Positions 16,185 to 62,234 of a stretch of DNA of 64,000 nt are shown piece after piece (position 1 is the first letter of the stretch; every line of letters starts with the position of its first letter). The notes under the pieces are model-generated. The model did not search any database and was not told the origin of the DNA. It was given only the letters and a program-made list of their open reading frames with translations. Both the position numbers and the translations under genes were made by a program. Origin of the DNA: Antennarius striatus (Eukaryota > Chordata > Actinopteri > Lophiiformes > Antennariidae); contig NC_090787.1 in the NCBI RefSeq assembly GCF_040054535.1, forward strand, positions 21,475,001-21,539,000, given 5' to 3'.

Positions 16185-17733
16185 TCACTGTTCCTCACTT
16201 TCCATCTCTTTGTGCTGTGATGGGTCTGGCATCAGATACGCTTTGCTGTTCTCTCTCTGTGGACCGTTGCAGGGACAATGTGCTGAGTAAAAGCTCTCTT
16301 TGTGCTCCAGCTTGATTGAGTCTGCGCTGCTCAGGCTGTGCAGGTTCATTATTTGTCTCAGCTTTTGTCTGAAATCCTTGGAGGCAAAGTAGTAAATGAA
16401 GGGATCGAGGCAGCTGTTGAGGCAGCTGAAGCAGAGAGTCAGCTTGTAGGCCATGTAGACAGACTTCCCGTAGAACAGTCTCAGCACGGAATGGGTTAAC
16501 AGGAGGATGTTGTTGGGGGCAAAGCAGAGGATGAACACCAGGAGGACGATGAAGGCCAGGCGTATCGCTCGTGCTTTCTGGACGGTCTGAGAGTCACTGG
16601 CCAGCTTGCATATGACCCTGACATAGCAGAATGTTGTCACACACAAAGGAAAGAGGAAGAGGAGGAACGCCATGCTGAACAGAAAACCAGCCCAGGCAGA
16701 CACGGAAGGGAGCATGTTTTGCTTCAGCACGTCAAAGCATGTGGTAATCCCGAGTTCCGAAATGTCAAAGGTCAGGTCTGTGGTCATCAGGGGGTACAAA
16801 ACGCTCAGGACCAAACCCCACATGAAGAAGATGCTGACCACAGCAACGGCCATGTTGTTGCGTTGTCTGAACAGCATGGGTCTGACGATGCCCAGGTAGC
16901 GGTCTATCCCGATGGCCATCATAGTCAGGATGGAGCAGTACATGTTACTGTAGAAGACCAGGGTCAGGAGACTGGAGGAGAGGAGAGACGGTTTTTAGTA
17001 TTCAGTCACTGCCTGGAACAAAATGATTTGGGGAAAGATGAGAAGATCAGTTCTAGTCTTTGTAAGGAAAATAGAATTCACAAATCTGGACAATAAAGGA
17101 ATTTAGCCTAATTCCCAAAAACTGCTCCCTCTAGTGGCCTGTGGAAGTAGTAGCTAAAATACAGACAAGGGAAGGAAGTTGAAATCTCTTCTAAAATATT
17201 TCTGTGGATTTCCAGACAACTAAAATCATCTCATCTTTGGCATTTTTTCCACTGGAGTCTATCCCAGCTGGCTACAGGTGAGAGGTGGGGTACACCCTGG
17301 ACAGATCGCCATTGCCACAAACAACCATTCACTCACACCTATGGGCCATCTGGAGTGATCAGTTCACCTGAGCTGGATGCTTTTGGAGTTGGGAATGAAT
17401 AATAAAATGAATATATGGTACTGACTATGATTATGAATACCTGCACATGTTGGGTCCCAGTTTCCAGTGGTAACCCTGTAGCTGGTAGGCGATCTGAAAA
17501 GGCAGGGCGATGCCAAGAGACAAGTCGCTGAGGGTGAGATTAATCATGAAGATGATGGAGGCGGTCTTGGGGGACGTGTGGAAGAGGAGGATCCACATGG
17601 AAAGGCTGTTTCCTGCCAGGTTGATGGCGGTGATGACCATGTAGATGACGGAGATGGCGATGCTGGTGTCTGCGTTCTGAAACAGGGACAGGGTGGCGTT
17701 GTCCAGCCTGATGCTGTTAGAATTCCCTAACAT
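16185..17733 (-). CDS. p2ry8: P2Y purinoceptor 8-like G protein-coupled receptor
   Basis: Two coding exons, 17441-17733 and 16185-16971, join to 359 codons; I recall human P2RY8 as also being 359 aa. Seven hydrophobic segments are visible. Other features are an N-glycosylation site at Asn12 (DNAT), the conserved TM3 Cys97, a DRY motif at 121-123, TTCFDVLK in loop 2, CFAPNN in TM6, and CLDPFIYYFAS in TM7 in place of NPxxY. The last two also match human P2RY8 as I remember it. P2RY8 is known as a Galpha13-coupled receptor for S-geranylgeranyl-glutathione that restrains B-cell migration. The start at 17733 follows an acceptor at 17760, so exon 1 here carries a short 5-prime UTR and more non-coding exons must lie upstream. 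The phase-2 intron falls right after Cys97. The neighbour asmtl agrees with the P2RY8 call. Confidence 0.93.
17255..17395 (+). repeat. L2/SINE-type 3-prime tail fragment
   Basis: Contains ggagtctatcccagctgg, ggtacaccctggacagatcg and caaccattcactcacaccta, a string common at the 3-prime ends of fish L2 LINEs and their SINE partners. It lies in the p2ry8 intron. Confidence 0.65.
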
Positions 17734-17760: not shown

Positions 17761-20314
17761 CTGTGGGGTGAAGATTTTACAAAAAAATGACGAGTTTTCT
17801 GATGTCAACAAATATTTAACCATATTACAGAATATCTTTGTAACACTTCAGATAATATACACGATACATAAGGCTTCAGCTATAACACACCTTTGTCCAA
17901 ACTGTCATTTTAATGCTGATTGATGTGAAGCTGTGAAACTGGAGCTTTAGGACATTAGTACATTTACTATATTATGCTATTGTTTGCATGTGCAGTACGG
18001 TTAAAAAAAAGAAGCTTTATTTGTGATGCAGTGTTGACGTCCTGGGAGCTGATGTACAATCAGACCCAAAAATGTTCTGAGAATAGACTCAGAAAAGACT
18101 CTATGATAGACAAACAGGGAGTAGACGAAGAGTTGACTGGAAGGTTTTACAAACACCAAAGGGTAATGAAATCAACAGGCCTATATTGCAATTATTAATG
18201 AAAATTATCCAATAGAAACTAAACTAATACAGCATAAATAGAATTTCTTTGAAATTTAAGTTAGATGTGTAGTTCCTCTGTGTGTCGTTTACATGTGTGT
18301 GACAAATACTTGAGGAAAACAAGACACAATGGTTGAAATAAATTCGATGAATAGTTGAGAAAAGTTAAAAAGTTTGATTTAAATGTGGCCTAAACAATTT
18401 TCAAAAATATAAATCCTACAGTGATGGCTGATAACCAGTAAGAGTTGGTTGAACACTCACCTATGTGAGCAGAGGCAGAGCAGGCTGGCATGTGAGTGTC
18501 GCTTACAGTTGGAGGGACAGATAATGAAGCAAGAATTGAACCTGCAGCAGCGCAAGTGAGAGAGGAAGAGAAGAAATGGATCATGTGACTATTTTTGTCC
18601 TACCCAAAGCCAGAACACCCACGGAATGAGATGAACCACTGCAGGCAGATGTTGTACATTGCCCAAACGGTCACATACAGTCATCCTGATTACCTGTAGA
18701 ATTACCCCGGTCCCCTCAATGCTGCCCCATCATACATTTACTCATAAAAGCACTGAAACCAGAGGGGGTGTATATGAGGCGTTATCAATCCACACTGGGA
18801 AAGTCAGCAGCGTTCTTGTGCGTCAAACGGTGTTACTTTCACCGCTAATCATCATTACAAATCACTGCGGGGTGCATGAGCAATCCATAGAAATACCTCC
18901 AATCCACGGGGTTAGAACGATACCTAATGTTAGTGTGGCTTAAAGCTTCGACAGAATTTTTAGGTTTTTAATTTTTTTTCTACATTTTATTTTATTTTAA
19001 TTTCTGTATGGGGGCTACTATCTATGTTCCCTTCATGTCTGGATCTGAAAAAGCATGAAGTTGTTTTCGAGTGAAGTCAACACTCCAGATTTGAACTCAC
19101 TGCTCACAAGATTGATGGGATGTGTTGTTATACCCTGGGCTTCCTGTTATGATAGTTCTGCTTTATGTGGGTGACAGTTTGACAACGTGTGACCTGCTTG
19201 TTTTTGTCTTACAGTTGTTTACCTTCATTGTGATCACAAGTAATATTTCATTAAAATAAGATTTAAACGTACTCTGAATATCATAAATGTCCTGGATGCC
19301 TACTTCCTGTGATATTATGTTTGCTCTGATAGACTCATATCTGTCTCTTGTACATGTGTGCAATGGGGTGTGCCACTGTCCACAAACTGTCACAGAATTA
19401 CCACAATGACTAAAACAGTAACTTCTAACGATTGAGGAACGTTCTTTTTCTACAGCAAAAAGAAAATGATGCAAGAGGAATGATTGGACGGTTTCACCAA
19501 CGCTTGTGACTTTCCATGACATCTGAGAGCAGAAAACATGTACACAGTATAGAAAATGTAATAATCTGCATCATACTTTACAACTCTATTATTTTATTTA
19601 AGGGAAATACATTATACAAATGTTCTTCATAGCTTATGGATAATCATGTACAAAGTTTTGCTCACAAAAACGTCATTCAATCAGTTGTGTAACATTAGAT
19701 AGATTGAACACATACAAATATGGGGGAAAGAAATTCCTTTATGAGGAAAAACACACCAGGGATTCCTCATGAATTTTTGTTTGAGTTCATCTTCAGTTTG
19801 TTTGAATAAAGTCTGTAGGATTTCTCCAGACATTCAGGTTGAACAGAATCCACAGAGGCTTAAACAAGAGGCTCTACAGAGAATAAAGGGGACGTCTTCA
19901 AACGGTCAAACATGAGCTGCCTTTTATAGGAACAAGACGAGACGATCACAAGGACTGGCACGGGACTCCGTCCTGTGAACGAAGCTTACATCAAACTGAC
20001 ACCCAGCAGGGAGCAGCACGCTTTAAAATGCAATAAAAATATCAATCTTTGAATCTGAACTAAATATTAATTAGTTGTGCTGTTATAAAAGTGACTCCTG
20101 GTCTCTATGTTTTTACGTGGTTTATTCCAAGAATAAATAATTCAACACATGCCCTCAGGATGCTTTCTGACTTACCAGCGAGACAGTTAAAAGTTTTATA
20201 ATATTTAATAAACTTGATATAAATCCTTAAATGGTATTCAGTGTTCTCAATTGTACTACATCCAATGCAGAAGAATTAGCTGCTCTCTTTCTAAATGAAT
20301 GATGTCCCGACTGC
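17761..20314. other. Between p2ry8 and upf3a
   Basis: No coding exon recognised. The left part should contain the p2ry8 5-prime UTR exons and promoter, which I cannot place. On the minus strand an AATAAA at 20121-20126 lies about 190 bp past the upf3a stop codon and is the likely upf3a polyadenylation signal. Confidence 0.5.
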
Positions 20315-23300
20315 TCATTGCTCGTCTTTGCTGTCGAACCCCGGCTCCATCCCAGAGCCGACCTCATAGCAGCGGTCTGACCCGGGTTCAGGGGAGTGGC
20401 CCAAAGGTATGCAGTCGTAGCCTTTGCCTGCAGAACTCATGCGCTTCCTGTTGCGTGCGCCGGGCTGGTAGAGCTGCATGGCGGGACGGTCCTGCAGAGA
20501 GCGGGGGGGGGGACACACGTCACATACAATGAACGGATTCATCCCCGCAGAGACGTTCAGCACCGTTCTCAGGGGGTTCCAGTTCTGTCGCCTCCCGTTC
20601 AGCCTGTCGACCAATGGCAGCTGTGATGTTCATGTAGGTGTTGAATCAGTAACACCACCTGGGACAGGTGGACTATGAGCTGAGGGACTTAGACTGATGG
20701 GTTGTGAGAATAATGTCCAGGTGAGTTCAGTGGGTGAGAGTGAACATTGTCACACATCATCGCTCTGACTGGACAGTGGGCTGCCGTCCCACATGATGAT
20801 GTCATCAGAGGTCATTCCGGTCCATGTGTGGGACAACTACTGATGGGGGCAGTAGTTTGTATCTCTGCTTAAAATCAAGATTGGCATCAATTCAGACAGG
20901 AAGAAGTACGGGCTGTCATTTTCATATGACAAAATACACAGTGGTGCGTTTCTACATTTTTTGTTGTTACACTGCTGCTATTACATATAAACACATAGGA
21001 AAGCTTCTTTATGCTGGCTTTAAGATTTTCACTTAATTAATCAAGACTCTGACAAAAAAAACTGTGTTCTTTACATAAATATACTGAAAACAAAGAGATT
21101 TTGCTTCTCTGAGCCGATAATCATCTGTAGAGAACCAGACATCAAACAACAACCAGGCAGTCAGAGATGCAACATCCTGCCACACCCTCACATTTTTGAG
21201 CCTCTGGCTTCCTGAAAATGTTGCTTTTTGTTCTGTGATTGTATCTCATCAGGTTTCAGAGATGTGTACCTAAAAAGGTATAAAAGTGAAAATTGAACCT
21301 CGACCTAGTTTTTCAAGGTCAAGGTCATCATCTCATCCTCATCCCCTTTGCTGCCCCAGTCATGTGCTCTTTGTTTCTTTCTATCTGCGGTTGTGACGGT
21401 GTTTGGTGGACTAATGGACGGACACACACACTGACAGTAACAACACGTCACCGCTTCACGGGAGGTCAACAAACCACAGAACCACACAAACACCCACAGA
21501 ACCACACAAACACCCACAGAAACACACAAACACCCACAGAACCACAGAACCACACAAACACCCACAGAACCACACAAACACCCACAGAACCACAGAACCA
21601 CACAAACACCCACAGAACCACACAAACACCCACAGAACCACACAACACCCACAGAACCACAGAACCACACAAACACCCACAGAACCACAGAACCACACAA
21701 ACACCCACAGAACCACAGAACCACACAGACACCCACAGAACCACACAAACACCCACAGAACCACAGAACCACACAAACACCCACAGAACCACACAAACAC
21801 CCACAGAACCACACAAACACCCACAGAACCACACAAACACCCACAGAACCACACAAACACCCACAGAACCACACAAACACCCACAGAACCACACAAACAC
21901 CCACAGAACCACACAAACACCCACAGACCCACACAAACACCCACAGAACCACAGAACCACCCACAGAAACACAGAAACACCCACAGAAACACACAAACAC
22001 CCACAGACCCACACAACACCCACAGAACCACAGAACCACACAAACATCCACAGAACCACAGAACCACACAAACACCCACAGAACCACACAAACACCCACA
22101 AAACCACACAAACACCCACAGAACCACAGAACCACACAAACACCCACAGAACCACACAAACACCCACAGAACCACACAAACACCCACAGAACCACACAAA
22201 CACCCACAGACCCACACAAACACCCACAGAACCACACAAACACCCACAGAACCACACAAACACCCACAGAACCACAGAACCACACAAACACCCACAGAAC
22301 CACACAAACACCCACAGAACCACAAAAACACCCACAGACCCACACAAACACCCACAGAACCACAGAACCACCCACAGAAACACAGAAACACCCACAGAAA
22401 CACACAAACACCCACAGACCCACACAACACCCACAGAACCACAGAACCACACAAACATCCACAGAACCACAGAACCACACAAACACCCACAGAACCACAC
22501 AAACACCCACAGAACCACACAAACACCCACAGAACCACACAAACACCCACAGACCCACACAAACACCCACAGAACCACACAAACACCCACAGAACCACAC
22601 AAACACCCACAGAACCACAAAAACACCCACAGACCCACACAAACACCCACAGAACCACAGAACCACCCACAGAACCACAAAAACACCCACAGACCCACAC
22701 AAACACCCACAGAACCACACAAACACCCACAGAAACACACAAACACCCACAGAACCACACAACACCCACAGAACCACACAAACACCCACAGAAACACACA
22801 AACACCCACAGAACCACACAACACCCACAGAACCACAGAACCACACAAACATCCACAGAACCACAGAACCACACAAACACCCACAGAACCACACAAACAC
22901 CCACAGACCCACACCAAAGACATTTGTTGCCCCCTTCTCCCCCCAGCTCGTGCTCACCTTCTCGCTCACCTTGTTTCTGAGGCGTTCCTTCCTGTTACCC
23001 AGCTCATCCCTGTCTTCTTGCCCCAGTTTGTCTCCAGCGTCGGGGCAGTAGGGGTATCCGTGATGGTGCCCCTCCTTCTTGGCGCGGTCCTGGCAGTAGC
23101 CCTTCCCCCACTTGGTCTCGTCTTTGCGGCGCATGAACTTTTCAAACTCGTAGTGGTGTCGCTGTCTCTTCCTCTCCTCATCCTTCCCGCGGTGGTCTTT
23201 GTCTCTTTGTCTGCGTCCTTGTTGCTCCCGCTGCTCTTTGTCGCTCTCCTGCTGCCCCCTGCTGGTCAGGAGGGATATTGCACAGATGGGAAATTCATAG

Positions 23301-26300
23301 TTACTGCACATTTTGTTGCTAAGTTCCAACTACCTTAACATCTACCCACCCATTTGGGCCACTGTCTCGTCTACTGCACCACTGTGACTCCCTCTGCCTT
23401 AACATACAGATAAATATTCACCTTTGACATTATTTCACCTATAGGGGACAAGTTAACTGTGTTCTTCTGAATATATCAAGATTTTTAAAACACAATATTG
23501 TCTTTTTTTTTTAGAGAAACAATTCAAAACCATTTGTTTCCACGGAGACCTGAAAACCGCATCACGAGTGATTGGATTAGAGCTATTTGAGTTTGTAAAA
23601 TTCTAAATCATACATTATCCTCTAGTAAATCAAGTGAATAAGTGGAAACAAATTTTTATTTTCTCATTCACCATTCCCTGGGGAAAGGATGTTTCTCTTA
23701 CTTCTCTTTGCAGTCCTTTGACTTCATCTGCCCCCCAGCTTTCTCCCATTTGCCCCTCTCTGCCTCCCCGGCGTCACTCTTGTCCCTCATTCGATCTGAG
23801 TCCACGTCGTCATCCCTGTCACTCTTCTTCAGGAGCTGTAGCAGCGCAGACGATGTAAGACACAAGAGGTTGTACATTTAAACCTGTTTACTGTGAACTC
23901 TGCTGACAGCTTCACCTTTATCTTGATGTCTTTATCCGACAGCTTCTTCTGCTTTTCTGCCTCTTTTCTCTTGCGTCTCTCCTCCTCTCGTCGCTTCCTC
24001 TTCTCCTCCTCCCTCTGCCGTTTCTTCTCCAGCTCTCTTCTCCTCCTCTCCTCTCTCTTCTCCTCCCTTATCCTCTGTAAATTCATATATGGAGTATCAC
24101 ACCAGATTCTTTAAAAGTGTGTTGCTGCGGTCTTATTTTTGATGTGCTTTTTCTAACCTGTTTTTCGATTTTCTTATTTTTGATGTACTCTAACAGAGGC
24201 GTTGTCCGTTTGGCTGAATCCATGAGAGGGAGAGAAGCAGACACAGGGTAGCAGTAGTGTGTTACACAGATCTGAGTACTGATGCTCATTTTGTGACTGA
24301 CAGGACAATAACTCTCGGTACCGATGAGCTCCCTGGTTTTGGCCTCTATTTCTCCCAGCAGCGTCTCCGGGTTGGCCATCGACTTCTCCTCATCACAGGA
24401 GTAATTCTCCAAGAAGCGCTTATATTCTGGGTCTGGAAGAGTTAAATGATCAAGATTATTAACTAAATCAATGTAGAATTGATCATCCAAAAAAAATGAT
24501 AACAATTTTAAGTTCATTTTAAATCAATACACGAGAATATATTGACCTTCTTCAATGCTGCCAGCTTTAGCATCTTTCTTTTTCAGCTTCTTCTTGGATA
24601 TTTTCTGGAAGGGGGCAAACTCCACCACTGCAGGGTATTCCTGGCCTGAGTAAACATTGAGATAGAAACCAACATTTAACACACCAGCAACCAGATAATA
24701 GTGACGTTATCTAAAGCCCCCTCTCTCTTCTCTGTCCATAAAATTCAGCTTTCAGCTACTAAACAAATATCCTCATTTGTTAGCATTTAATCTAACAGAG
24801 CGGATTAAATGCTAACAAATGAGCCTTTGATTAAACAAAATGAAACAATACCTTTGTTATCAATGAAGACATAGCCATCAAATCGGTCCCTGAACAGCAG
24901 GATGTCCTCAGGGTTCCTAAAATTGATGTACGCTCTGGAGAACAGGTGGGGGTACAGACTGTGGACAGAGAAATAGAAAGGGGGAGAAACCAACATTCTA
25001 AGATAAAGCAGTGTGTAAATCATGTATTGATTAGGTAGAATAGCTCGATTACCTTTGATCAGCTTGAAAGAACTCAAAATAGTCGTAGGGGGGGAGGGGG
25101 CTGAGCTGCTCCTCCAGCTGCTCCTTGGATAGGTTGGGTGGAAGTCGTCTGAGCACCACCTGTGAGCAGGAACTCATTTGTGATTCCAGTAAAACAGAAA
25201 TGTTGTTGGTCGTTCAGACAGTTCATAATTGAAAAGATGGTTCGTCTTTTAAGATGTAGTCCAGTTCAGACCAGTATTTTTAATGGTAATGTAGATCGTA
25301 AAGCTTGAAAACATGAAATACATCAGAAAAACGGCTGATTTTTGGAACAATACATCTAGAATGATGCACAAAGTACAGAAAATCCTTTAATTCAAAGGAA
25401 ATATTACATTCCAAAAAACACGGAGTAGTCGTAAACATGAACTCAGTTTGACAGAATGTGTGAGACTGATTTTTAAAGTATTTCACTTCCCTCCACCGCC
25501 ACTGGTTTCCAGTTTGACTTCCTCTTTCTGTTTGAAGTGGAAGTGAGAGGTTTGTGGGCCGCAGGAAAAGTGAGTGTTGTTTACATTTCCGCATTCTAAT
25601 CAGAAATGTCAGCCTATGGCGAGGTAGCTTACGAGTTAATGTCACCACGTGTTTTTTCACTGCAGCAGAGACCTTAGACCTTATATCAGCCACGACAATA
25701 CCCAGTTATACAAAGATAACTGTCTTCCACTTGTGAAACGGAAACGGCAACGAAGAAACTCAACACTCCTGGGTGTGACGGGCTTTCAGAGTTATCGCAA
25801 GTTACTCGTATGAATGACAGTGGTGAAAGCCGAAAGGAAGCCACTGACAGGAAGACGGAAGTCATGAGCACCAAATCCAAGACAAGAGAAGGATTCTGGA
25901 GCGTGCGGACCACGTACGAGACAGGAAAGCTGGCACAGGTCACAGCCGAGATGAGACAACCTGCATGTCCTGGGAATTAGTGAGAGCAGATGGACAGGAT
26001 CAGGCAGGCCTACAACCACCACAGGAGAGACATCTGCACCACCTATGATTTTGTCATTGGAGGGACACTTCCCACACCGAGACATCCACAAACTGACCTG
26101 GTACTCCCCCAATGGAAGAGACAAGAACCAGATCGACCACTCGATGATTAACGGTATGTGGAGGCGATCTCTGCTAGATGTCCCAGTGAGAAGAGGACCT
26201 GACGTGGGAAGTGACCACCACCTTGTCACCGCAGCACTGAAGTTGAAGCTGAGGAGGACCAGAGCCAGTCCAAGGGGACGACAGCGATATGATGTGGAAA

Positions 26301-29231
26301 AACTGTGGGACCACAAAGTGAAGAGTGCCTTCATCCTCCAGCTGAAGAACCGTTTCCAGGTCCTAGCAGAAGCAGAAGACCAGACACAGCCAGACACAGG
26401 AAGCATCAATATCAAGTGGCAGCAGTTCAAGACAGTATACCAGCAGACCTGTGAAGCCTGCCTTGGAACCAAGCAGAGGAAGGGGAAGGAGTGGATCACC
26501 GACAATACCTGGCAAGCCATTGAAAACAGAAGAACCCTCAAGAAGAAAGTCGTTGAGGCCAAATCAGAGCGGTTGAAAGAGAGATACGTGCAACAGTTCA
26601 GGGAGGCGAACAGAGCAGTGAAAAGGAAGACGAGCAGACAAGAGGAAACACATAGACGACCAGGCAAGCAGAGGAGAGCAAAGCAGGGTGTACAAGATCA
26701 CTATGATGGTATGCAGCAGGTACAGAGGAGGAACTGATGCACCCATCATGGACAAACAGGGGCGACTACTCACGACAGAAGCTGAACAAGACGCACGATG
26801 GACAGAACACTTCAGCGAGGTCCTGAACAGACCACCACCATCAAGAGAGGCAAATATACAGGAGAACTCTTTAAAACAGATCCACAGTTAACAGCAGACC
26901 AGCTACGGTCAATCTTTAAGAACATCTGGGAGGTGAAGAAACTACCCCATGACTGGACAGAGGGAGTCATTGTAAAGATCATGAAGAAAGACGCCTTCAA
27001 CAACTGCAACAACTGGCGAGGAATCACCCTAATGTCCGTTCCCAGCAAGATCCTGGCCAAGATCACCATCCAGCATTTCGCCGACATAGTGGACCAACAA
27101 CTGAGAGCAGAGCAGGCAGGGTTCTGGAAAGGAAAGGGAAGCACAGACCAGATCTTCCCATTGCGGAACATCATAGAGCAGTGCACAGAAAGGCAAAGAC
27201 AACTCTACATCAACCTCGTAGACTTTGAGAAGGCTTTTGACAGCGTGCACTGGGAAAGTCTCTGGTGCATCCTCCGAAGCTACGGAATACCACAGCAGAT
27301 AGTCGACGTCATCAAAAGTTTTTACAGCAGCTTCACATGCAGAGTAGGGAACAGTGGTACCACCTATGAAGTGAAGACCGGCGTCACTCAAGGTTGTACA
27401 ATGTCAGCGCTTCTCTTCAACATGACCATCGACTGGGTGATGAGACGTACAACAGAAGACAAGTCACATGGCATCAGGTGGACCCTCTTCTCGGTGCTGG
27501 AAGACCTCTACTTTGCAGATGATCTGGCCCTGGTCTCCCATACCCACCAACACATGCAGGAGAAGACCACACCAAGTGGGCATGAAGATCAACCAGAAGA
27601 AGACAGAAGTGATGCTGCTGAGTGTTTCCAACCCAGCACCAGTTCAAGTGAACGGAGAAGACCTGCTAACAACTGAGGAGTTTACCTACCTGGGCAGCAC
27701 AGTCAGGCATGATGGAGGAGCGGGTAGTGACATCAGGAACCGTCTCAACAAAGCCAGAAACATCTTCCGTATGCTGAACAACGTGTGGAGGTCCTCCCAG
27801 TACAGAACCAAGACCAAGCTGAGGATTTACCAGAGCTGTGTACTGTCCACCCTACTGTACACAGTGTTGGAGGATGTCAGAGAGCGATATCACCAGGCTG
27901 TCAGTCTTCCACACCAAGAACCTCAGGAGAATCCTGCGTATCTTCTGGCCTAACACCATCTCCAACCAACAACTACTAGCCCGCTGCAAGCAAGAGAGCA
28001 TGGAGACCATCATCACGCGGAGGCGATGGAGATGGATTGGACACGTCATGAGGAAAGAGCAGGACAGTATCACCCACACAGCCCTTCATTGGACGCCAGA
28101 GGGGAAGTGCAAAAGAGGAAGGCCTAGAAACACCTGGCGCCGGACTGTGGAGGCGGAGCTCAAGAACATGCAGCAGACGTGGGGTACCATCCGGAAGCTG
28201 GCCCAAAACCGACAGGCGTGGCGATCCTTCGTAGCTGCCCCATGTGCCACACGGCATAATGGGCACGAGTGAGTGAGTTGTGAAAGAATTCAAAAAAATG
28301 TTAGTAAGTGGAAAGTCCTAAAAGTAAATTTAATAGGAAGAATTCTGAAGTATTCTTACAATGGCACCTAAAACATTACTATAGAGGTATATTCAATAAC
28401 TTATTCATTTGGTCAAATAAAGCAAGTAGATTAAAGCAGAAACTTTTGTATTATCCAAGAGCAGAAGTAGGTCAGCTTTGACCTGGGTCAGAAAACAAGT
28501 CCTGAGTATATCAGCGGCGCACTGGCGTCACGCCCAGAGTGTCCCCCGCCTCACACCCTCAGTCAGCTGGGATAGACTCCAGCTCCCCACGACCCGCCAC
28601 AGTGGATGAAGTGGTAGACGATCAATGAATGAATGAATGAATGAATGAATGAATACTGATTATCTTTAGCAAAAGTGTGGGTGGAATTCGGATATTGATG
28701 AAAATCTGAAATTGTTTTTTTTTTTTTTACTTCTTTGAGATCGATTTGCTGCTCTTCCCGGGACCTGGCTGTGACCATAAAACAAGAGGAGGACATCTGT
28801 TAGTAACAGTGAGAACCGTCACCGTCATTACGGAGGTTTCTCTCCTGCGGTCCCTGAACGCACCACCCCATCAGGCATCAACATGGAGCCGGAACATGGG
28901 GGGGGGCACCGTTTACCGACACAGTCCCGTTCACATCCACGAGGAAACACACGGGAGGTGAACGCGCAGCTGACCGCCTGGAGGAACCCGCGACACGGCC
29001 GTGAAGCCGGCCGGTCCTCCCGGCCGCTGTCCGCGGTGCTGATCCGTCCCGCCTCCATGTTGGAGGACCCCCCCATCCCGCTCCGACACCCACCTTGGTG
29101 AAAACTTCCTTCTTGTCGTCTTTGTGCTTCAGGGCACCAGAGGTGCTCTCCTGTCCCCCCGGGGCGTCTCTGGGGGGCAGCTCCACGGTCCTCTCCCTGC
29201 CCACCGGGACCTGGTCTTTGTCGGACCTCAT
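20315..29231 (-). CDS. upf3a: Regulator of nonsense transcripts 3A
   Basis: Ten exons: 29094-29231, 25053-25159, 24852-24958, 24547-24645, 24322-24432, 24158-24213, 23916-24074, 23702-23835, 22970-23258, 20315-20491. Total 1377 bp, 458 aa; all junctions keep frame. Residues about 46-150 form the RNP-type UPF2-binding domain (VVLRRLPP, DYFEFF, SRAYINFRNPEDILLFRDRF, VEFAPFQK). Exons 5-7 carry PEYKRFLENYS and a long Arg/Glu-rich helix (REEKREERRRRELEKKR). The last exon holds the exon-junction-complex binding motif RPAMQLYQPGARNRKR. The protein bridges UPF2 to exon junction complexes and modulates nonsense-mediated decay; it shuttles between nucleus and cytoplasm. ANPETLLGE, TTPLLEYIKN and the N terminus MRS fit UPF3A better than UPF3B, and the neighbour cdc16 supports this. 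The first base of exon 9 (23258) could shift by a few bases. Confidence 0.93.
21471..22915. repeat. 1.4-kb minisatellite in upf3a intron 9, unit about 20 bp
   Basis: About 70 copies of the unit CACCCACAGAACCACACAAA, with a recurring 10-bp sub-unit (accacagaac). One long variant block occurs at 21920 and again at 22331, so there is a higher-order repeat of about 411 bp; a part recurs near 22626. One strand is almost free of G apart from one per 10 bases, and on the upf3a transcript the array is G- and U-rich with a GGG every 20 bases. All frames are open for hundreds of codons because the unit has no stop. It begins 55 bases after the donor of exon 9. Confidence 0.97.
24772..24823. repeat. Perfect 21-bp hairpin in upf3a intron 3
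   Basis: Arms 24772-24792 and 24803-24823 are perfectly complementary with a 10-base loop. On the transcript it starts about 28 bases after the exon 3 donor (24851) in a 206-base intron. Confidence 0.9.
25795..28290 (+). mobile_element. RTE-like LINE with internal deletion, antisense in upf3a intron 1
   Basis: Starts with an endonuclease remnant (VRTTYETGKLAQVTAEM near 25897), then a deletion, then the endonuclease C-terminus (FPHRDIHKLTW, KNQIDHSMING, GSDHHLVTAALKLK). Reverse transcriptase blocks follow: NWRGITLMSVPSKILA, RAEQAGFWKGKGSTDQI, NLVDFEKAFDSVHWESL, GVTQGCTMSALLFN, LYFADDLALVSHT. The 3-prime part has GRPRNTWRRTVEAELK near 28120. Several frameshifts break it. Large open frames on its minus strand are shadows. 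Confidence 0.85.
28530..28655 (+). repeat. L2/SINE tail ending in (GAAT)n
   Basis: Contains cagctgggatagactccagc followed by a run of about eight gaat units, the standard end of fish L2-type LINEs and SINEs. In upf3a intron 1, between the RTE copy and exon 1. Confidence 0.75.
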
Positions 29232-29257
29232 CGCTCCATCTCCTCTCGGCTCGGAGC

Positions 29258-29299
29258 TCTCGCGAGAACACGTGATATCGCGAGAGCAGACTGACGTCA
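29258..29299 (-). promoter_or_regulatory. upf3a promoter motif cluster
   Basis: Within 42 bp, starting 27 bp upstream of the upf3a ATG, lie a perfect TCTCGCGAGA (29258-29267, the element bound by BANP), a perfect E-box CACGTG (29269-29274), a 9/10 copy TATCGCGAGA (29276-29285) and a perfect CRE TGACGTCA (29292-29299). This is typical of TATA-less housekeeping promoters. The sites are seen; the binding factors are inferred from known motifs. Confidence 0.75.
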
Positions 29300-29339
29300 T
29301 AAACGCGGCTTCGCTGTTCTGGCTGCTGTCACAGGAGTG

Positions 29340-30065
29340 AGACGGGGGGGCAAGAGGGGGCAAGAGGGGGCAATTATCGTTATTATAGCTAGAAAATGAA
29401 TGTTAAACGAGAATAAAGACAGAGAGACCTCCACACCTCAGTGTGTCCTCTGACACCGAGGAACAACTGATACGTTTGGACCTGATCAGAACCCGACTCT
29501 GGATAATTGATTTTCTATATTAGACCAGGTAGTGAAACATGTGGTGGATTACAGGAAATATACGTGAGGAGGTATAACTTCATGAATCTAGAGTTATCAA
29601 AATGGTTTCCAGCAGCTGTGAGGATCATTGACACAGGTGACCCCCATTAACACAGGTGACCCCGTCCTTGCTGTGATCATTAACGGGATTATACCAGCTA
29701 CCACAAAGAACAGTCTTCTTCACACCTCCTGACAGCTTTTAGGAACGGACTGATTCTCACTCGGCAGAGGAGAGAAGTATCGATTTTCTTTTTCGTTTCC
29801 AACTCCAGGAAAAATATGTTACACAAAATCAATTAGTTGATTGAATCTCTGGGTTAGGGTTTAATTTTATTAATCATAATAACAATCATTGATGTTCTTA
29901 CACACAATACATGAAAGTGTTAATATGGACCATCGATCACTTGATCAGCCTGTATCACAACAGATCCACAGTCAATCAATCAATCAATCAATATTCTGAT
30001 CAATACAAACAGCACTGATATCAATCTGGAACAACATGATCACAGTGTTTGGGTTAATTCGACCC
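29340..30065. other. Spacer between upf3a and the small CpG-rich gene
   Basis: A short ggggcaagag triplication at 29345-29371, a (CAAT)n run at 29969-29992, and on the minus strand an AATAAA at 29866-29871 that would serve the small gene upstream of it. No other feature seen. Confidence 0.5.
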
Positions 30066-30600
30066 TCAGCACCCGGGCTCCGGGTCCGGGTCCGGGTCCG
30101 GGGTCGGGGTCGGGCTGAGCCCCGCCAGACCGGGAGCCTCGCTGCCGGAGCCCCAGTGGTCCCGGAGGGAGGACTGGCTGACGGACCGCCCGCGGACGCC
30201 TCGACCGGGAACTGCGGTGAGGAAAGCTCCAGAGTGACTTCAACACACGGGGAGAGATCGACTGACGGTCAGAGAAATCCACCCGGACCGGACTCACCGT
30301 GGAGGAACGCCCGTCCGCCGCCGCCGGGCTCCGCGCCCCGCCGCGGGTCCTCCGAGCCGGACACGGAGCTCTGGACGGGGGGCAGGAAGGTGGAGCTGGT
30401 GTCCAGGTCCCGGCACACCGCGTCTCGGCTGTAAATGCCGGCTGACTGAGACGGAGTACAGCCCATCTCTCCTGGAGGGACCCCCACAGAGACGCGTCTG
30501 CCCCCGCGGAGGTCAGGGACGGGATGGGGGGGGGCTCACTCCGCCCTGAAGGGACCTGAACGCACCTCAGCTCCTCCTGGGAGGGATCTGTTTGGATGTG
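30030..30600. promoter_or_regulatory. CpG-rich island between upf3a and cdc16
   Basis: Strikingly GC- and CpG-rich against AT-rich surroundings, including a hexamer repeat (gggtcc, about 30079-30100). It overlaps the small two-exon gene and probably is its promoter and first exon. Confidence 0.65.
30066..30466 (-). CDS. Small unrecognised gene, predicted N-myristoylated/palmitoylated protein, 104 aa
   Basis: Two exons, 30298-30466 and 30066-30211, with a GTGAGT donor and a CAG acceptor, join in frame to 105 codons including the stop. The 86-bp intron is of normal size for fish. The protein begins MGCTPSQSAG, which fits the N-myristoylation consensus (Gly2, Ser6) with Cys3 available for palmitoylation. 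It continues with a Ser/Pro/Gly-rich, probably disordered body (STFLPPVQSS, RGRSVSQSSLRDHW) and an acidic Pro-Asp repeat tail (PTPTPDPDPDPEPGC). The ATG has purine at -3 and G at +4. It lies in CpG-rich DNA and has an AATAAA about 195 bp past the stop. I recognise no family; only the first six residues recall the photoreceptor protein PCARE. Alternatively it is a CpG island with a chance open frame, or only the start of a longer gene. Confidence 0.5.
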
Positions 30601-30839
30601 AAATTTAGATCTGGAGTACTGGGGGGGGGGGGGATTTCATGAAATCTTTACTTATTTGAAACAGTTTTGCAAAATTTGATGGTAGATGAAAATGTAAAAT
30701 GTTTTTAAATTAAAATGAAAAAGAGACCCTGAACCCCCCCAGCTCACCTTCACACGTAAGGCTGATGTTCTTTCTGCAGATCAGCATCAGTATCACAACA
30801 AGTTGTACAGAAAACAGAAAACCTGTGTATCCATCAGAG

Positions 30840-30950
30840 TGAAGGTCTTCAGCTGCTTATCGGATCAGCTGGAGCTCTGAATAGAGCTGGGGTGCACTCC
30901 GGACGAGACGCCAGCTCATCACCAGGCCTAACAGACAAACCACCACTGTG
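30840..30950 (+). repeat. L2/SINE-like fragment
   Basis: Contains gctggggtgcactccggacg and agctcatcaccaggcctaac, a diverged version of the L2/SINE tail motif also seen at 17255-17395. Confidence 0.4.
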
Positions 30951-31626
30951 CTACCTCAAACAGAAAAACTTGGTAGAAAATTTTATTTAAAAAATTCAAG
31001 TAACCGATCACTACACTACGACTTCATGATGCAACAGGTGTGTCATTAAAAGGTAATCCATACATTTAGATGACAGAATCCACACATGATTTGATGACAG
31101 TAATTACAAAATACAGGAATATGAATGGAAACAATAAGGAAAACAGATGAAGTTTTAAAATAATTGCATGATTTATTGTAAGACTTGAAAAGAAAGGTTT
31201 TTACTGACGCTGCTTGTTCGCTCTTTATTCAGGGTGTGAATCCACAGGTGAAGCAACACAGGAGGGTCCTGCCAGGGGCAGAAGGGGCTCGTCTTCAGGA
31301 TGTGAGGTGAGGTGCAGACGTGATTGCTGTGTTCAGACGTGTCAGAGGACCCTGTTGTCAACATACTCAGACATAAAACAGGGTCCAAAGCTGATCCAGG
31401 GACTGGAACCCTACCAATGCTCATGTCTAAGTGCATTAATGATGTACAGCAAGTGCTGTATTCATAATGTATTCACAATGTTCACATTGTCCTTCCAGAA
31501 ATACCTGTATGTAACGCATGAGAGGGAGAATCCACAGGAAACCTTTGGTTGAGGTGGAGCTGCGGTTTGAACGTCGTCCTAGGCTCGGGTGTGTGCACCT
31601 ACAACAACTCCTCCTGGTAGGATCGA

Positions 31627-33858
31627 TCACGTGCTGGTGTCTGACAGGGTGTCTAACATCACATCACTCTCATACATGTCACACTCCAGCGTCAGGGACA
31701 GGCGCAGAGGAGTCTCCAGCATCATCTTGTCCTGATTGGGCAGTGGCGTTTCCAATGATGTGATGCCCGTCTCCTCCAGCCTGGGCGTGGCCACAAGGTC
31801 GCCAGTCTCTGTCGCATTCAGCATCTTCATCAGCGCGGGAGTGTTCACGCTGCCACGCACCTTATCACTGATGTCTGTGCCTTGGTGGAAACAAGGAGGA
31901 GATATCTGTCACCAGAGGAAACCTCTACTAACAAGTCTAGTAGAAGTTCAATGTCAAGTAATCCAATCCAGTCCAATCCAATCTTTACTTGTTGAGCACT
32001 TTACAACAACCACAGTCGAACAAAGTGCTGTACAGACGAATAAATAAAAAACAAACATTATAGATAAAAGACAAAAGGCTCAAATATTGTAAGTAAAATA
32101 AATTAACTATCAAACATTTTAAATTTCAAACCAGCCATCAGAGACAACATCAACTCTTCTGAAACCAGTGTAGTCGCTGCCACCCTACCTATGTAGGCAT
32201 CCGTGTCACCAATGTACATCTCAATACAGTGACCGAGCATCGTCACAGAAAAAGTGTCGTCTCTTTTCAGCCCAAGTGCCTGCAAGGAAAGAAACCAATC
32301 AACATCGAGCATTTCTGACATCTGTTGACAGATATCCACCAACCAATGAGAGTGGATCTACATTTTTTTAGAACACCAGTAGTTGGCGGATGGATACATC
32401 AGCTGAGATCGGATCTCATTCTCGTTTGTGGAGTGGAGACATAGCTTGTGTGTTCTTGTGATGTTTGCAGTTCTTTTCATACTTTATCATTCTTGACATA
32501 ATTTATATATAAATGTAGGGGGTTTGGGGCTTTTTTACACGGCTGGAACAGATTAAATGATTTTATTTTAAATGGAGTAAAGTTGTTTGACGTACAAGCT
32601 CAGTCACAGAACATTTATCTCATATCTCAAGGTACTACTGTACATATATATGAATGAACGAGTGATTAGTACACCAAAAGTTATGGAGAATCTATGTTTC
32701 TAATTTCCTGATGAATAATCAACATTCTAAATGTTAATGCAATGAGGGGTGAATTGAATTTTCAGCCTCTGCAGATGTTTTATGGTCTCAAATGATCCTG
32801 TTGGTTTTGGAGTATGGCTTAATTGAATATCTATCTCTCTATCTACTTAGTGCTCTATCCCCTTAGTGCCCAGCTCAACGTCTCCAAGACAAAGGAGATG
32901 GTGCTGGATTTCCGGCGGGCACCTCCCTCTCCACAGCCAGTGATCATGGAAGGCAGTGAGGTGGGGGTGGTAGGAAACTATCAGTACCTGGGACTGCAGC
33001 TAGACAGCAGACTGGACTGGTCACTCAACTCCAACTGTGTGTACAAGAAGGGGCAGAGCAGGATGTACTTCCTGAGGAGGCTGGCCTCCTTCAACATCTG
33101 TCCTAAGCTCCTTCTCATGTTCTATCAGTCCGTAGTCTCCAGTGTGCTGTCATACGCCATTGTGTGTTGGGGTGGGGGGGCCAGGAAAAGAGATATGGAC
33201 CGTCTGAACAGACTCATCCGCAGAGCGGGCTCAGTGGTCGGGCTGAGCCTGGACTCTGTGGAGACGCTTCTGGGGAGCAGGACCATGTCTAAAGTTAAGG
33301 CTATCATGAACAACACCAGCCCCCCCCCCCACCCCCTACACACCACCTTCTCCCAGCAGAGAAGCACCTTCAGCGGCAGACTGCTGTCACACAGCGCCTC
33401 CACAGAGAGGCTGAGGTCCTCCTTCGTGCCCCGTGCCATCAGGGGGTACAATGACTCTCTCAGGAGGAGCGGGGGGAGGTGGGAGGTCAGCACGGGGTTG
33501 AATGGATTTAATTTAATTTTAATTTAATTTAATGTAATACTGTTTATATATTTATATATGTATTTATTTTTTATACTGTTTTATATTTTAATTCAATTTT
33601 ATACTGTTTAGATTTTATTTTATACTGTTTATATTTTAATACTGTAATATTTTAAATTTTATACTGTTTATATTTTTAGTTATAGTTTAGTATATAAGTC
33701 CTGTTAGTGCTGCATGTGTCTGTCTGTTAGTGTAATGTATGTCTTGTGGTATGTCCTGTGATGTCAGTGTTTCCTTTTCTCCTGGTGTTTATCCAGTATT
33801 ATTTGTTATGTAATGCCTGAGCAGTGGATATATGCAATTTCCTCCGGGATTAATAAAG

Positions 33859-36900: not shown

Positions 36901-39900
36901 AGTTCAAGTTGCAGATTGATGTTAAGCTCAACCAAGTATGTTTTTTTAAGCGTAGCGTGTTCAGGCTACAAAGGGTTCTGCTGTCAAACAGATCAATAGT
37001 CACGGTGGCACAGTCGGCAGCGCTGTTGCCGCTCAGCAAGGCGGTTCCCGGTTCAAGTCCCGCTCTGTGGGGAGTTTGCATGTTCTCTGGGTTCTACGAC
37101 TTCCTCCCACCTCCAAAACCATACTGCTTAGGTGGATTGATCATACCAAACTGCCCTGCCAGTGTACCCCGCCTCACAGCCCCAGTCTGCTGGGATAGGC
37201 TCCAGCACCCCGTGACCTACGATGAATGAATAATGACCATCTAGTGGCATGTTCTATACACTTTGTATGTTTTTTAAATCTGTGAATGTGTGCAAGATGT
37301 GTGACTGTAATCCTTCCCGATAATATCCTGAACAGTCCTCTGCATTCTGAATTATTCTACTATTGTTTCAAATAAAATGCTCTGGTCAGATTTCTGTTGG
37401 GGTCTGAAAGACACAAACAAGTCCCAAAATCATGGGTGTCGGTAAGCTTTCCACTTCAGTTCCATTAATTACACAGGCAGTCGTCGACTTACGACAGATT
37501 GAATTTTTACTTAAGAGTCGAATTACGACCAATCTGTTTTCTCGCCTATTGTGAGCCACAAGGTAGGGTGGAGGTGTGGTGGTGAGGACAGAAGAGCGTG
37601 GGAGTGGAGGGCGCGGGAGACACGAGGGGGCCGGGGGAGGTGGCGTCTCTCTGATCATTTTCTCTAGATATCATACTGTTCCATATTTTTACGTTTGTCA
37701 GGTTCAAGTCAAACATCAGTACTGTACTACAACACAATTAGTTTATTATGTGAAAACATACAAAATGAAAAACAATGTAGTGTTGAAATACCAAAATGCA
37801 AAGACAGTAAAATACAAAATCTTGGTGGCTGCTGGCATCACTGGTGCTGGTGCTTTTCATAAGCATTGTGAGCTTTGTCTGAATTGTTCATCTCTTTTTC
37901 TCCTCATAAATTTCACGATATGGACGGAAAGCGTCGTTTGCCATCCGTTCAATCCTTGCAAATGTTTCTATGTTCTATGTCCATTTCTTCAAAGTGTGCA
38001 CGGAGTTTATTTAAGAGGGAAAAGCCTTCTGACAAGCCTTTGGTGGTGAACATTGTTTCTGGTTCCTCCTCTTCTTTCTCTGCTTCTCTTCTCTCTTCTT
38101 CTTCCACTCTTTCTTCTTCCAGCGCGATCAGTTCTTCATTCGTAAGTTCTCCTGATTCTTTGTCTAATAGCAACTCCTCGATATCTTCCACTTCACACTC
38201 CAAGGAGAGGTTTTTTACCAGTTTCACTATTTTCTCCCGAATCTGATCAAGTTCTTCGTCACTTTCAAATCCAGCAGAAGAGTTCACATAACGCTTGACA
38301 GTTTTTCCAAACCCCACTCATACATTTCTCCGTCACAGCCTCCCAAGCAGTAGAGATATTCTTGATACACTGTAGAATGTTGCACTGTTTCCAAAAATCT
38401 CGCAGCGATAGTTCCGGGTCTGCATCCATAGCAGTTATGGCTTGTGCAAAGGTGGTAGGAGGTAGTTTGCCTTGAATGCAGCAGTTGAACCCTGATCCAT
38501 GGGTTGGATCAGGGTTCAGTGGAGTTGTATTGGGAGGCAGGAAAATCACCTTTACATCTGGATGGAGGTCAGATAAGTGAGGTGGATGTCCAGGTGCATT
38601 GTCGAGGAGCAGCAAAATCTTGAAAGGAATTCCGTTCTCCAAACAGTATTCTCGCGCTTGAGGAATGAAACGATTCATAAACCAATCCTCAAACAATGCC
38701 TGGGTCATCCATGCCTTCCTGTTAGCACCATATGAAACTGGCAAAGTGTGCTTGTTTACATTCTTGAAGACACGCGGGTTTTCTGAGTGATAAATTAAGA
38801 AAGGCTTAAGCTTAAACCCTTTCACGTTCCTGCCGAGCAGCAAAGTCAGCCTTAACTTATAGGCTTTAAATCCCGGCATGCTTTTGACTTCCTTATGGAT
38901 GTAGGTGCGTTCTGGCATTCGTTTCCAGAACAACCCAGTTTCATCAACATTGAAGACAAGTTCTAGAAGATACTCCTCTTCTGTAATCAGTTCGTCAAGA
39001 CTGGCGACAAACTCACGCGCTCCTTTCTCATCTGCACTCGCTGCTTCTCCGGTCACTCGAACGTTATGCAGCTGGAATCTTTTCTTGAATCTCCTGAACC
39101 ACCCAGTACTAGCCACAAAATTCTGACCGTAGTCTTCTCCAGCACTTTCCTTCAAAGTCTGGAATAGACTTCTAGCCTTCGTCTGCACAGTACAAAGGCT
39201 TAATGGAGTCCGTTTTTAAATCTGATCTTCCATCCAAATGTGCAGTAATTTTTCCATTTCATGGATGGGCCCAGTGTGTTGTTTTGTGATTACTGTTGAG
39301 TGGATAGATGCAGAACCTTTCACAGCTTCACGGATCCTATCTTTGTCTTTCAGAATTGTTGACACAGTAGAGTGTGATAACTTCAGGTCACGTGCGATCA
39401 CATTCACTTTTTTTCCTCCTTCGTGCTGTTTTATCACCATCATTTTTGTGTCCAGATCGATGGCCCGTCTTGCCTTCTTGGCAGCCTGAGGAGATGATGA
39501 AAACAATTTCCTCTTGGTAGACATCTTGGGGGTATACAGACAAGGAAGAAGTGTGCTGCACTGTCCTGGGCTGGGCTACTGATCTCTCAGTGTGACTGAA
39601 CAGCGTGTGTGCGCCGTGGTGACTGAAGAGAGCGCGGGAGTCTCAGAGCGTGAGTACTGTGGCAGGAGGGAATGCCCGCGTTGCCCAGACATTGTGGTCG
39701 TAAAGTCGGTCGATCGTAAGTCGCATAGGTCGTAAGTGGACGACTACCTGTAATTATCAACTCCATCACGGTCTATCTTCACTCCCCAACATCAGGTTAT
39801 CACAATTATTCAAGGAGTGTGCCTTAGTTTAGATGTACATAAAAGTACACTTTCCTTTTTAATTCTGTCCATCGTTTACACAACGGGTTAATAATTTACC

Positions 39901-49019: not shown

Positions 49020-50154
49020 AGAGTACTACAGATGCAGTATTTGCGTTGAGGATGTTGATAGAGAAGTACAGAGAAGGCCAGAGGGAGCTGCATTGTGTTT
49101 TTGTAGATCTGGAGAAAGCTGATGACAGGGTGTCCAGAGAGGAACTGTGGTATTGTATGAGGAAGTCTGGAGTGGCAGAGAAGTATGTTAGAGCGGTGCA
49201 GGACATGTATGAGGACTGTAAGACAGTGGTGAGGTGTGTGTAGGTGTGACAGAGGAGTTCAAGGTGGAGGTGGGACTGCATCAGGGATCAGCTCTGAGCC
49301 CCTTCTTGTTGCTATGGTGATGGACAGGCTGACAGACGAGGTTAGACAGGAATCTCCATGGACTATGATGTTTGCAGATGACATTGTGACCTGCAGTGAG
49401 AGCAGGGAACAGGTGGAGGAGAAGCTAGAGAGGTGGAGGTTTGTCCTGGAAAGGAGAGGAATGAAGGTTAGCCGCAGTAAGACAGAGTACATGTGTGTGA
49501 ATGAGAGGGACCCAAGTGGAAGAGTGAGGTTACAGGGAGAAGAGATCAAGAAGGTGGAGGATCTGAAGTACTTAGGCTCAACAGTCCAGAGCAATGGAGA
49601 GTGTGGAAAAGAGGTGAAGAAGCGTGTCCAGGCAGGATGGAACGGGTGGAGGAAAGTGTCAGGTGTGATGTGTGATAGAAGAGTTTCAGCTAAAATGAAA
49701 GGAAAGGTGTACAAAACTGTGGTGAGACCAGCGATGTTGTTTGGTCTAGAGACAGTGTCACTGAGGAAAAGACAGGAGACAGAGCTGGAGGTAGCAGAGA
49801 TGAAGATGCTGAGGTTCTCTCTGGGAGTGACCAGGATGGATAGGATCAGGAATGAGTACATCAGAGGGACAGCACATGTTAGAGGTTCTGGAGATAAAGT
49901 CAGAGAGGCCAGACTGAGATGGTTTGGACATGTCCAGAGGAGAGATAGTGAATATATTGGTAGAAGGATGCTGAGTTCTGAACTGCCAGGCAGGAGGCCT
50001 AGAGGAAGACCAAAGAGGAGGTTTATGGATGTAGTGAAAGAGGACATGAAGGTAGTTGGTGTGAGAGAAGAGGATGAGAAGACAGGGTTAGATGGAGGAC
50101 ACTGATTGGCTGTGGAGACCCCTGAAGGGAAAAGCTGAAAGGAAAAGAAGAAGA
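49020..50154 (+). mobile_element. RTE-clade LINE, 5-prime truncated, inserted in the Tc1 right terminus
   Basis: Encodes the reverse transcriptase palm and thumb (VFVDLEKADDRVSREELWY, GLHQGSALSPFLL, WTMMFADDIVTCSESREQV with the FADD block) and the 3-prime domain (RWFGHVQRRDSEYIGRRML, GRRPRGRPKRRFMDVVKED). Only one early frameshift is evident, near 49240. It is bounded by a 19-bp target-site duplication, 49001-49019 and 50155-50173, with one mismatch, and ends in a gaagaagaa tail. The minus-strand open frame across it is a shadow. Confidence 0.93.
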
Positions 50155-51974: not shown

Positions 51975-53548
51975 TCTTATTGTGCCGGATCCAAGCCCGG
52001 ATAAATACAGAGGGCTGTGTCAGGAAGGGCATCCGACGTAAAACTTTTGCCAAATCAAAGATGCAAAGCCCGGGTTAACAACGACCGCCATCGGTGCTGT
52101 TGACCTACAGGGTGCCGGTGGAAATTGGACTACTGCTGGTCGAGGAAGGAGAGGAGGAAAGTGTTTTTGTAGATTGGGGGAAAGAGGAACGCCAAGAGTA
52201 TAGGACTGAGAGTAGGGACGTTGAATGTTGGAACTATGACAGGAAAAGGTAGAGAGTTGGTTGACATGATGCAGAGGAGGAAGGTAGACATACTGTGTGT
52301 ACAGGAGACCAGGTGGAAAGGTAACAAGGCTAGAAGTTTAGGAGCAGGGTTCAAGTTGTTCTATCATGGTGTAGATGGGAAGAGAAATGGAGGAGGAGTT
52401 ATCTTGAAGGAGGAGTTTGTTAGGAATGTCCTGAAGGTGAAAAGAGTGTCGGATAGAGTGATGAGTCTGAAGCTAGAAATAGAAGGTGTGATGTTCAATG
52501 TTGTTAGTGGGTATGCTCCACAGGTAGGATGTGAGCTGGAGGAGAAGGAGAAATTCTGGTCACAGCATGCCTAGAAGTGAGAGAGTTGTCATTGGAGCAG
52601 ACTTCAATGGACATGTTGGTGCAGGAAACAGAGGTGATGAGGAGGTGATGGGCAGGTTTGGTATCCAGGAGAGGAACACAGAAGGACAGATGGTGGTTGA
52701 CTTTGCAAAAAGGATGGAAATGGCTGTAGTGAATACTTTCATCCAGAAGAGGCAGGAACATAGAGTGACCTATAAGAGTGGAGGTAGGAGCACACAGGTA
52801 GACTACATCTGGTGTAGATGGTGTAACCTGAAGGAGATCAGTGACTGCAAAGTAGTGGTAGGTGAGAGTGTAGCCAAACAGCATAGGATGGTGGTGTGTA
52901 GGATGACTCTGGTGGTGAGGAAGATGAAGAGGGCAAAGGCAGAGCAGAAGACGAAATGGTGGAAGCTGAAAAAGGACGAGTGTTGCATGACTTTTAGGAA
53001 GGAGTTAAGACAGGCTCTGGGTGGTCAGGAGGTGCTTCCAGATGACTGGACAACTACAGCTAATGTGATCAGGGAGACAGGTAGGAGAGTACTTGGTGTG
53101 TCATCTGGAAGGAAAGTAGATAAGGAGACTTGGTGGTGGAATGAGGAGGTACAGGAGTGTATACAGAGAAAGAGGTTAGCTAAGAAGAAGTGGGACACTG
53201 AGAGGACTGAGGAGAGTAGACAGGAGTACAGGGAGATGCAGCGTAAGGTGAAGGTAGAGGTAGCAAAGGCCAAACAAGAAGCTTATGATGACTTGTATGC
53301 TAGGTTGGACAGTAAGGAGGGAGAGACTGATCTATACCGGTTGGCAAGACAGAGAGACAGAGATGGGAAGGACGTGCAGCAGGTTAGGGTGATTAAGGAT
53401 AGGGATGGAAGTCTATTGACAGGTGCCAGTAGTGTGATGGGAAGATGGAAAGAGTACTTTGAAGAGTTGATGAACGTGGAAAATGAGAGAGAACAAAGAC
53501 TAGAAGAGGTGACTGTTGTGGACCAGGAAGTAGCAAAGATTAGTCAGG
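51975..53548 (+). mobile_element. RTE-clade LINE, 5-prime half only
   Basis: Begins with the 5-prime leader (agggctgtgtcaggaagggc) and carries the endonuclease domain: LNVGTMTGKGRELVDMMQRR, VDILCVQETRWKG, RNGGGVILKEEFV, then VVIGADFNGHVGAGNRGDEE after a small break near 52560, and STQVDYIWCRW. A linker follows up to VENEREQRLEEVTVVDQEVA. It stops abruptly near 53548, before the reverse transcriptase. Same family and strand as the 49020-50154 copy, which holds only the later part. Confidence 0.9.
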
Positions 53549-53549
53549 C

Positions 53550-61199: not shown

Positions 61200-61489
61200 C
61201 GAAATGTTTACAAATATCCCACCGATCAACTCTGATGCGTAAGCCCTGTTTAATGTCTTACAGGAGGCATCCGGCTCAGGTGAGTCTCCACACCTGTGAC
61301 TTTCCATCTGCGCGTCATTTGTCGGTTGTGGATGCTCGACGCAGCACCAACTTCAGGAAGTGGGATGAAGAAAGATGTCACGTCAGGTTGAAATGGGAGG
61401 AAAGGCGAACGCAGACCGAGGAATTCACGCCGAAACGGCTTTGGGACAAGAAGCCCAGCCGGATCATTAACATTTCGGAGAGCATCAGT

Positions 61490-62234
61490 GAGACGACGGC
61501 GCAGTAACCACGTGTTTACGTCATGGAAAGCCGATGTTCCAGTGTAACCCCTCCTCCCGGTCTATTTCCAACTGAGGTCCGACGCGCAGGAGGATTCGTG
61601 CGTTTCCCTGAGCGCGCCGCACTTTTGGAGATGTTGCGGTGCTGAGCAGGCGTCAGGATCACATCCCAGAACGGGAGGACACGCACACCTCAGGAATCAC
61701 GGACCCCCCCATTCCGCTGTTAACGGCAGCGCTGCAGCGGGTGGAACTGTTGGAGACGCACACTGACCTCCCCGGAGCGGCTCCCGGTACTACTGAACGG
61801 TGCCGTTTGGTCGGGGCTGTCACTGCAGCAGTGTGAGCAGAGGATGCGTCCTCCTTCGGCCGTGATGCTGAGCAGATCCACCCTCCTCTCCTCACACTCA
61901 TCAACTAACAGGCAATGATTTCCTGCGCGGAAACCCACCGTGTTCCACTTGTGTTTTCACGGTAGTTGTGTTTGTTTACCGGCAGCCCGTCTCCTCCCGC
62001 TGCGACACATGCAATCTGTAGAGTGTATTTTCTATTATCGACTGTCCTTTTTACGCCAGGAGGAAACACACCGTGATCACCAACTGGGACAGGCACTGAC
62101 TTGGATTCTGGAGCTATTTTTCTATCAGACAGTTGTCCTGGAGAAGTGATCCAATTGTGTTATTATTATGCAACCGCAAGGAACTCCTGTACATCTGGGT
62201 GTTTAAGCCTCTGGATTGCTCTTCGCCCAAATCA
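61490..62234 (+). promoter_or_regulatory. fgf14 1B promoter and 5-prime UTR candidate
   Basis: CpG-rich compared with the flanks (for example ccgctgttaacggcagcgct near 61715). Includes an E-box CACGTG at 61509-61514 and TTACGTCA at 61516-61523, a bZIP/CRE-type site, side by side. Position directly upstream of the fgf14 exon supports the call. Confidence 0.55.

Follow-up and report, generated by a model that had tools for sequence, protein, structure and literature searches.

Along the minus strand of the 64,000-nt stretch of DNA analyzed here (the window), the order of loci in descending coordinate is a CFAP97-like gene, cdc16, a candidate two-exon gene, upf3a, a rhodopsin-type GPCR and an O-methyltransferase. 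The upstream neighbor of the candidate, cdc16, spans roughly 44 kb down to 31.63 kb of the minus strand as judged by its open frames, and an exon at about 40.5-40.65 kb matches human CDC16 with an E-value of 4e-22 in a search of PDB sequences. We take the minus-strand open frame at 31630..31908 to hold the last coding exon of this gene, encoding its C-terminus. The downstream neighbor, upf3a, occupies 24083..29231 of the minus strand, with its start codon at 29231 in a frame that is presumably its exon 1, and it probably has further exons below 24083. Smg4_UPF3 was detected in two of the ten neighbor peptides that we tested against Pfam, and five of the ten, including the cdc16 C-terminus, gave no Pfam match. 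The CFAP97-like gene (about 46-45 kb, minus strand), which we assume to be cfap97d2, matches Hmw_CFAP97 with an E-value of 0.0017, under the curated cut-off. On the other side of upf3a, Pfam places 7tm_1 at 16188-16994 of the minus strand in the rhodopsin-type GPCR gene, whose first exon presumably lies near 17.8 kb, and Methyltransf_2 at about 7.5-7.9 kb, also on the minus strand. The Smg4_UPF3 and human CDC16 matches lie on the same strand, and the candidate is situated between upf3a and cdc16, as the original prediction had it. As far as the sections of PMC6151645 drawn on here go, the neighbors of fish ASMTL include cdc16, upf3a and p2ry8, with which the gene order in the window fits, and the neighbor list in those sections names no gene between cdc16 and upf3a. 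A literature search for cfap97d2, cdc16 and upf3a together found no report.

Several repeats and transposon-like sequences are also present in the window. A tandem array at 21474-22914 consists of about 73 copies of the 20-base unit CCACAGAACCACACAAACAC and has an extreme strand skew; frames of roughly 500-680 codons are open through it in several phases on both strands, and it is a repeat rather than a gene. Within cdc16, and apparently in an intron, lies a minus-strand DNA transposon (38265-39575) with two adjoining open frames that carry a CENP-B-type N-terminal domain, a Tc5-type HTH domain and DDE_1; we take it to be pogo/Tigger-like. On the plus strand, frames at 49233-50105 and 52173-53577 resemble by eye a LINE reverse transcriptase and endonuclease. 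Related copies of these frames occur in L006 and L020, and the 49233-50105 frame was seen again in two of the 22 stretches that served as background. Another plus-strand segment (25955-28272), whose appearance on visual inspection suggests a LINE reverse transcriptase, lies between upf3a exon 1 and the next recognized exons of that gene, on the opposite strand from it.

The candidate itself is compact, its full anatomy fitting within 600 bases. On the minus strand, sequence and translation define an exon 1 at 30298..30466 (56 codons plus 1 base, with a protein start of MGCTPSQS), and sequence defines an 86-nt GT-AG intron at 30212..30297 and an exon 2 at 30066..30211 that ends in TGA. The start codon at 30466 has the strong context that had been described for it (GAG-ATG-G, with a purine at -3 and a G at +4). 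The donor, ACG/GTGAGT at 30297, matches eight of nine consensus positions by our own count, and the acceptor, TTTCCTCACCGCAG/TTC, ends at 30212 and contains a pyrimidine-rich run; the consensus sites claimed for the 86-bp intron fall at exactly those bases. Joined translation yields the expected frame across the junction, 104 codons followed by TGA. The Pro-Asp tail encoded by exon 2 does derive from a hexanucleotide repeat, which spans 30073-30111. A poly(A) signal, AATAAA, is found on the minus strand at 29866..29871, 195 bases past the stop codon, where the original prediction had put it, and T- and GT-rich stretches follow within 60 bases. The G+C content is 0.728 and 0.781 in the two exons versus 0.581 in the intron, and 0.340 over the 200 bases past the stop codon. 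We confirm that the elements described for the candidate are all present and correct to the base.

Both exons lie in a CpG-rich island that window counts place at 29961..30620, without strand (300-base windows, G+C of at least 0.6, CpG ratio of at least 0.65). In four 200-base windows covering 30000-30499, the G+C content is 0.66-0.71 and the CpG observed/expected ratio is 0.83-1.0, compared with a ratio of 0.46 across the whole window, in agreement with the CpG-rich setting that had been proposed. Two further CpG-rich islands in the window have no gene assigned to them: one at 61481-62000 holds no ATG frame of at least 60 aa, a 90-aa ATG frame ending at 61507, and no ATG frame in the other, at 20301-20640, exceeds 77 aa.

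An island of this kind might be regulatory, acting as promoter or enhancer either for upf3a or for a non-coding RNA, with a frame that is accidental and splice-like sites that arose by chance; we regard this as unlikely, though it keeps some weight. A high G+C content makes stop codons rare, and stop-to-stop frames of 144 codons on the plus strand and 198 codons in another minus-strand frame are indeed open at the locus. Moreover, the portions of PMC3583005 cited here indicate that computed CpG islands in cold-blooded vertebrates are often located off promoters, and that intergenic non-methylated islands are tied to distal regulatory elements, non-coding RNAs and unannotated transcripts. Against a purely regulatory role, upf3a has a separate CpG-rich island at its start (28741-29380 by window counts), about 0.6 kb away from that of the candidate, and the candidate has a poly(A) signal of its own.

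The same landmarks bear on whether the locus belongs to a neighbor's transcript, either an extended cdc16 3' UTR or alternative upstream exons of upf3a, in which case the small open frame would be non-functional or regulatory. The candidate is on the same strand as both genes and the distances are short: its start codon is 1.2 kb past the cdc16 stop codon, and 0.8 kb separates its own stop codon from the start codon of upf3a downstream. However, three AATAAA sequences (31229, 31177 and 30987) are found between the cdc16 stop codon and the candidate island, another is found between the candidate stop codon and upf3a, and the candidate and upf3a islands are separate, which makes a shared transcript very improbable. 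Given the separate islands and the AATAAA sites on both sides, the candidate appears to form a complete transcription unit rather than part of a neighbor.

We analyzed base composition by codon position across the candidate. In exon 1, the G+C content at codon positions 1, 2 and 3 is 0.667, 0.643 and 0.875, respectively, and the third-position peak has a permutation p-value of 0.0015; a four-base test of position-specific composition is marginal (p = 0.0498). Within the intron, the phase that corresponds to exon 1 third positions has the lowest G+C content of the three (0.517), and the codon-position signal is not significant (p = 0.61). When the repeat tail is left out of exon 2, the third position of the spliced frame is again the richest in G+C (0.848 versus 0.697 and 0.758), and this exon alone does not reach significance either for third-position G+C (p = 0.14) or for position-specific composition (p = 0.32). 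For the joined frame without the tail, position-specific composition gives a p-value of 0.0074. Since the intron length is not a multiple of three, the genomic phase of the G+C peak differs between the exons, and it shifts over the intron in the way that splicing predicts, weakly in exon 2. Such a shift would not be expected if the frame were an accident of a regulatory island. It is also impossible for an unspliced plus-strand frame, which bears on the idea that the true product comes from an antisense coding frame (30000-30434). That frame is open from stop to stop for 144 codons, and by our own arithmetic it shares its third-position phase with exon 1; nevertheless, no two-exon frame of at least 60 aa exists on the plus strand of the island under the start and splice rules used for the candidate, and an antisense product is scarcely credible.

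To gauge how readily such a structure arises by chance, we searched 4000 order-1 Markov copies of the 540-base island with the start and splice rules of the real site. Just one of the copies produced a two-exon frame of 95 aa or longer, a result that argues against an accidental frame in a regulatory island but overstates the case, since the rules were chosen after the site had been seen. Applying the same rules to both strands of 284 kb of the genome (the window plus the 22 background stretches) returned ten rows. Six of these fall at three loci that resemble LINE reverse transcriptase (by eye), one is the start of the GPCR gene (likewise named by eye) and one is the candidate itself. The remaining two, at L010 8143 and at position 14220 of the window, have no explanation as genes; thus, such structures do arise by chance in the genome at large, which leaves some room for a regulatory island with an accidental frame. 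By coordinates, the candidate is the only row within any of the 14 islands counted in the 284 kb. An accidental origin of the candidate frame is unlikely, and three features support the two-exon gene of the original prediction: its structure, the shift in phase of the third-position G+C peak over the intron (weak in exon 2) and a poly(A) signal of its own.

The predicted protein has 104 residues, among them 16 G, 16 S, 14 P, 9 R, 8 D and 3 C (at positions 3, 18 and 104), and lysine is absent throughout. With a GRAVY score of -0.66 and a top 19-residue hydropathy mean of 0.14, it contains no hydrophobic or transmembrane segment by hydropathy. It had been proposed to be disordered, and this stands in part: the composition suggests disorder, whereas the charge-hydropathy plot places the protein narrowly across the boundary towards folded proteins (0.427 versus 0.424). 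Because the protein is near that boundary but on its folded side, the case for disorder, which we consider probable, draws mainly on composition and on the lack of a family. The proposal that the MGCTPS start fits myristoylation and palmitoylation holds at the level of the motif: Gly2 matches the N-myristoylation pattern, and Cys3 is adjacent. A cysteine beside a myristoyl group is the usual site of palmitoylation, and dual acylation of the predicted protein is plausible.

No Pfam family was found for the 104-aa protein at E-values up to 10, a range in which the HMMER filters drop most matches above about 0.1. TAL-effector repeats were considered and rejected as homologs: 29 PDB chains were matched with a best E-value of 0.0005, nearly all of them TAL-effector repeats, and no chain contains an individually significant stretch; we read these as weak matches summed over many repeats rather than homology. 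Comparison of exon 1 with viral and prokaryote contigs, where a relative is not expected, gave 81 and 596 pattern stretches, respectively, none of which was confirmed. A DNA search of the fish's own genome (548 Mb in 42 contigs) returned a single place, the candidate itself, indicating that there is no close duplicate; since very common words are passed over and only the top candidates are scored, diverged copies could escape this search. Rfam at gathering scores yielded no match over 28000-32000, and a literature search did not find the string MGCTPS.

The gene structure, the codon-position signal and the motif are observed features of this DNA. From them, we consider it probable that the candidate is a small, two-exon protein-coding gene lying between cdc16 and upf3a and having a CpG-rich promoter and a poly(A) site of its own. 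It would be transcribed from that promoter, spliced once and translated. Met1 would be removed and Gly2 myristoylated during translation, after which Cys3 would be palmitoylated, and the lipid-anchored product would be held at the plasma membrane or at membranes derived from the Golgi, facing the cytosol, and its Ser/Pro/Asp-rich tail would serve there as a docking or regulatory segment. Small G+C-rich genes may escape annotation and short-read sequencing, and public annotation may already list the candidate as an uncharacterized locus. If the gene is real and absent from mammals, it would represent a lineage-restricted membrane-anchored protein beside two housekeeping genes and would offer a clean way to test how such genes come and go; should it prove not to be a gene, the locus illustrates how convincingly a CpG island can imitate one.

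The start of the predicted protein invites comparison with PCARE, the photoreceptor cilium actin regulator (C2orf71), a largely disordered protein that we take to correspond to Pfam PF15449. The chromosomal neighbors of PCARE differ, we assume, from those of the candidate. In the parts of PMC10341768 cited here, PCARE orthologs begin M-G-C-x-P-S with positions 1, 2, 3, 5 and 6 fully conserved, and myristoylation of Gly2 and palmitoylation of Cys3 are described. The MGCTPS start of the candidate fits this pattern. The likeness does not extend to size or family: mouse PCARE has 1279 aa, and its coiled coil, actin-binding and other motifs all lie beyond residue 170 (PMC10341768, same parts), whereas the candidate has 104 aa with its own stop codon and poly(A) signal and no Pfam match at E-values up to 10. 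The length and the missing Pfam match thus oppose membership of the candidate in the PCARE family and leave at most a likeness of the anchor. A more speculative reading, which we judge improbable, is that the candidate is a vertebrate gene retained in fish but, in mammals, either lost or always overlooked, encoding a minimal lysine-free adaptor with a PCARE-like dual-acylated anchor, perhaps ciliary, and a short and disordered docking tail. The ciliary part of this reading is disfavored because changes of PCARE Gly2 or Cys3 reportedly leave ciliary trafficking unaffected, although loss of palmitoylation lowers membrane anchoring and lessens the reach to the ciliary tip (PMC10341768, as far as the parts cited here describe it).

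The candidate shares its Met-Gly-Cys start with a wider set of proteins. PDE8 (MGCAPS), LYN and LAMTOR1 are dual-acylated proteins that begin in this way, and we know of no similarity between any of them and the candidate past the first residues. They differ from the candidate in that no domain was found in it by Pfam. The likeness to all three lies in the Met-Gly-Cys start, and with PDE8 it further includes Pro5 and Ser6.
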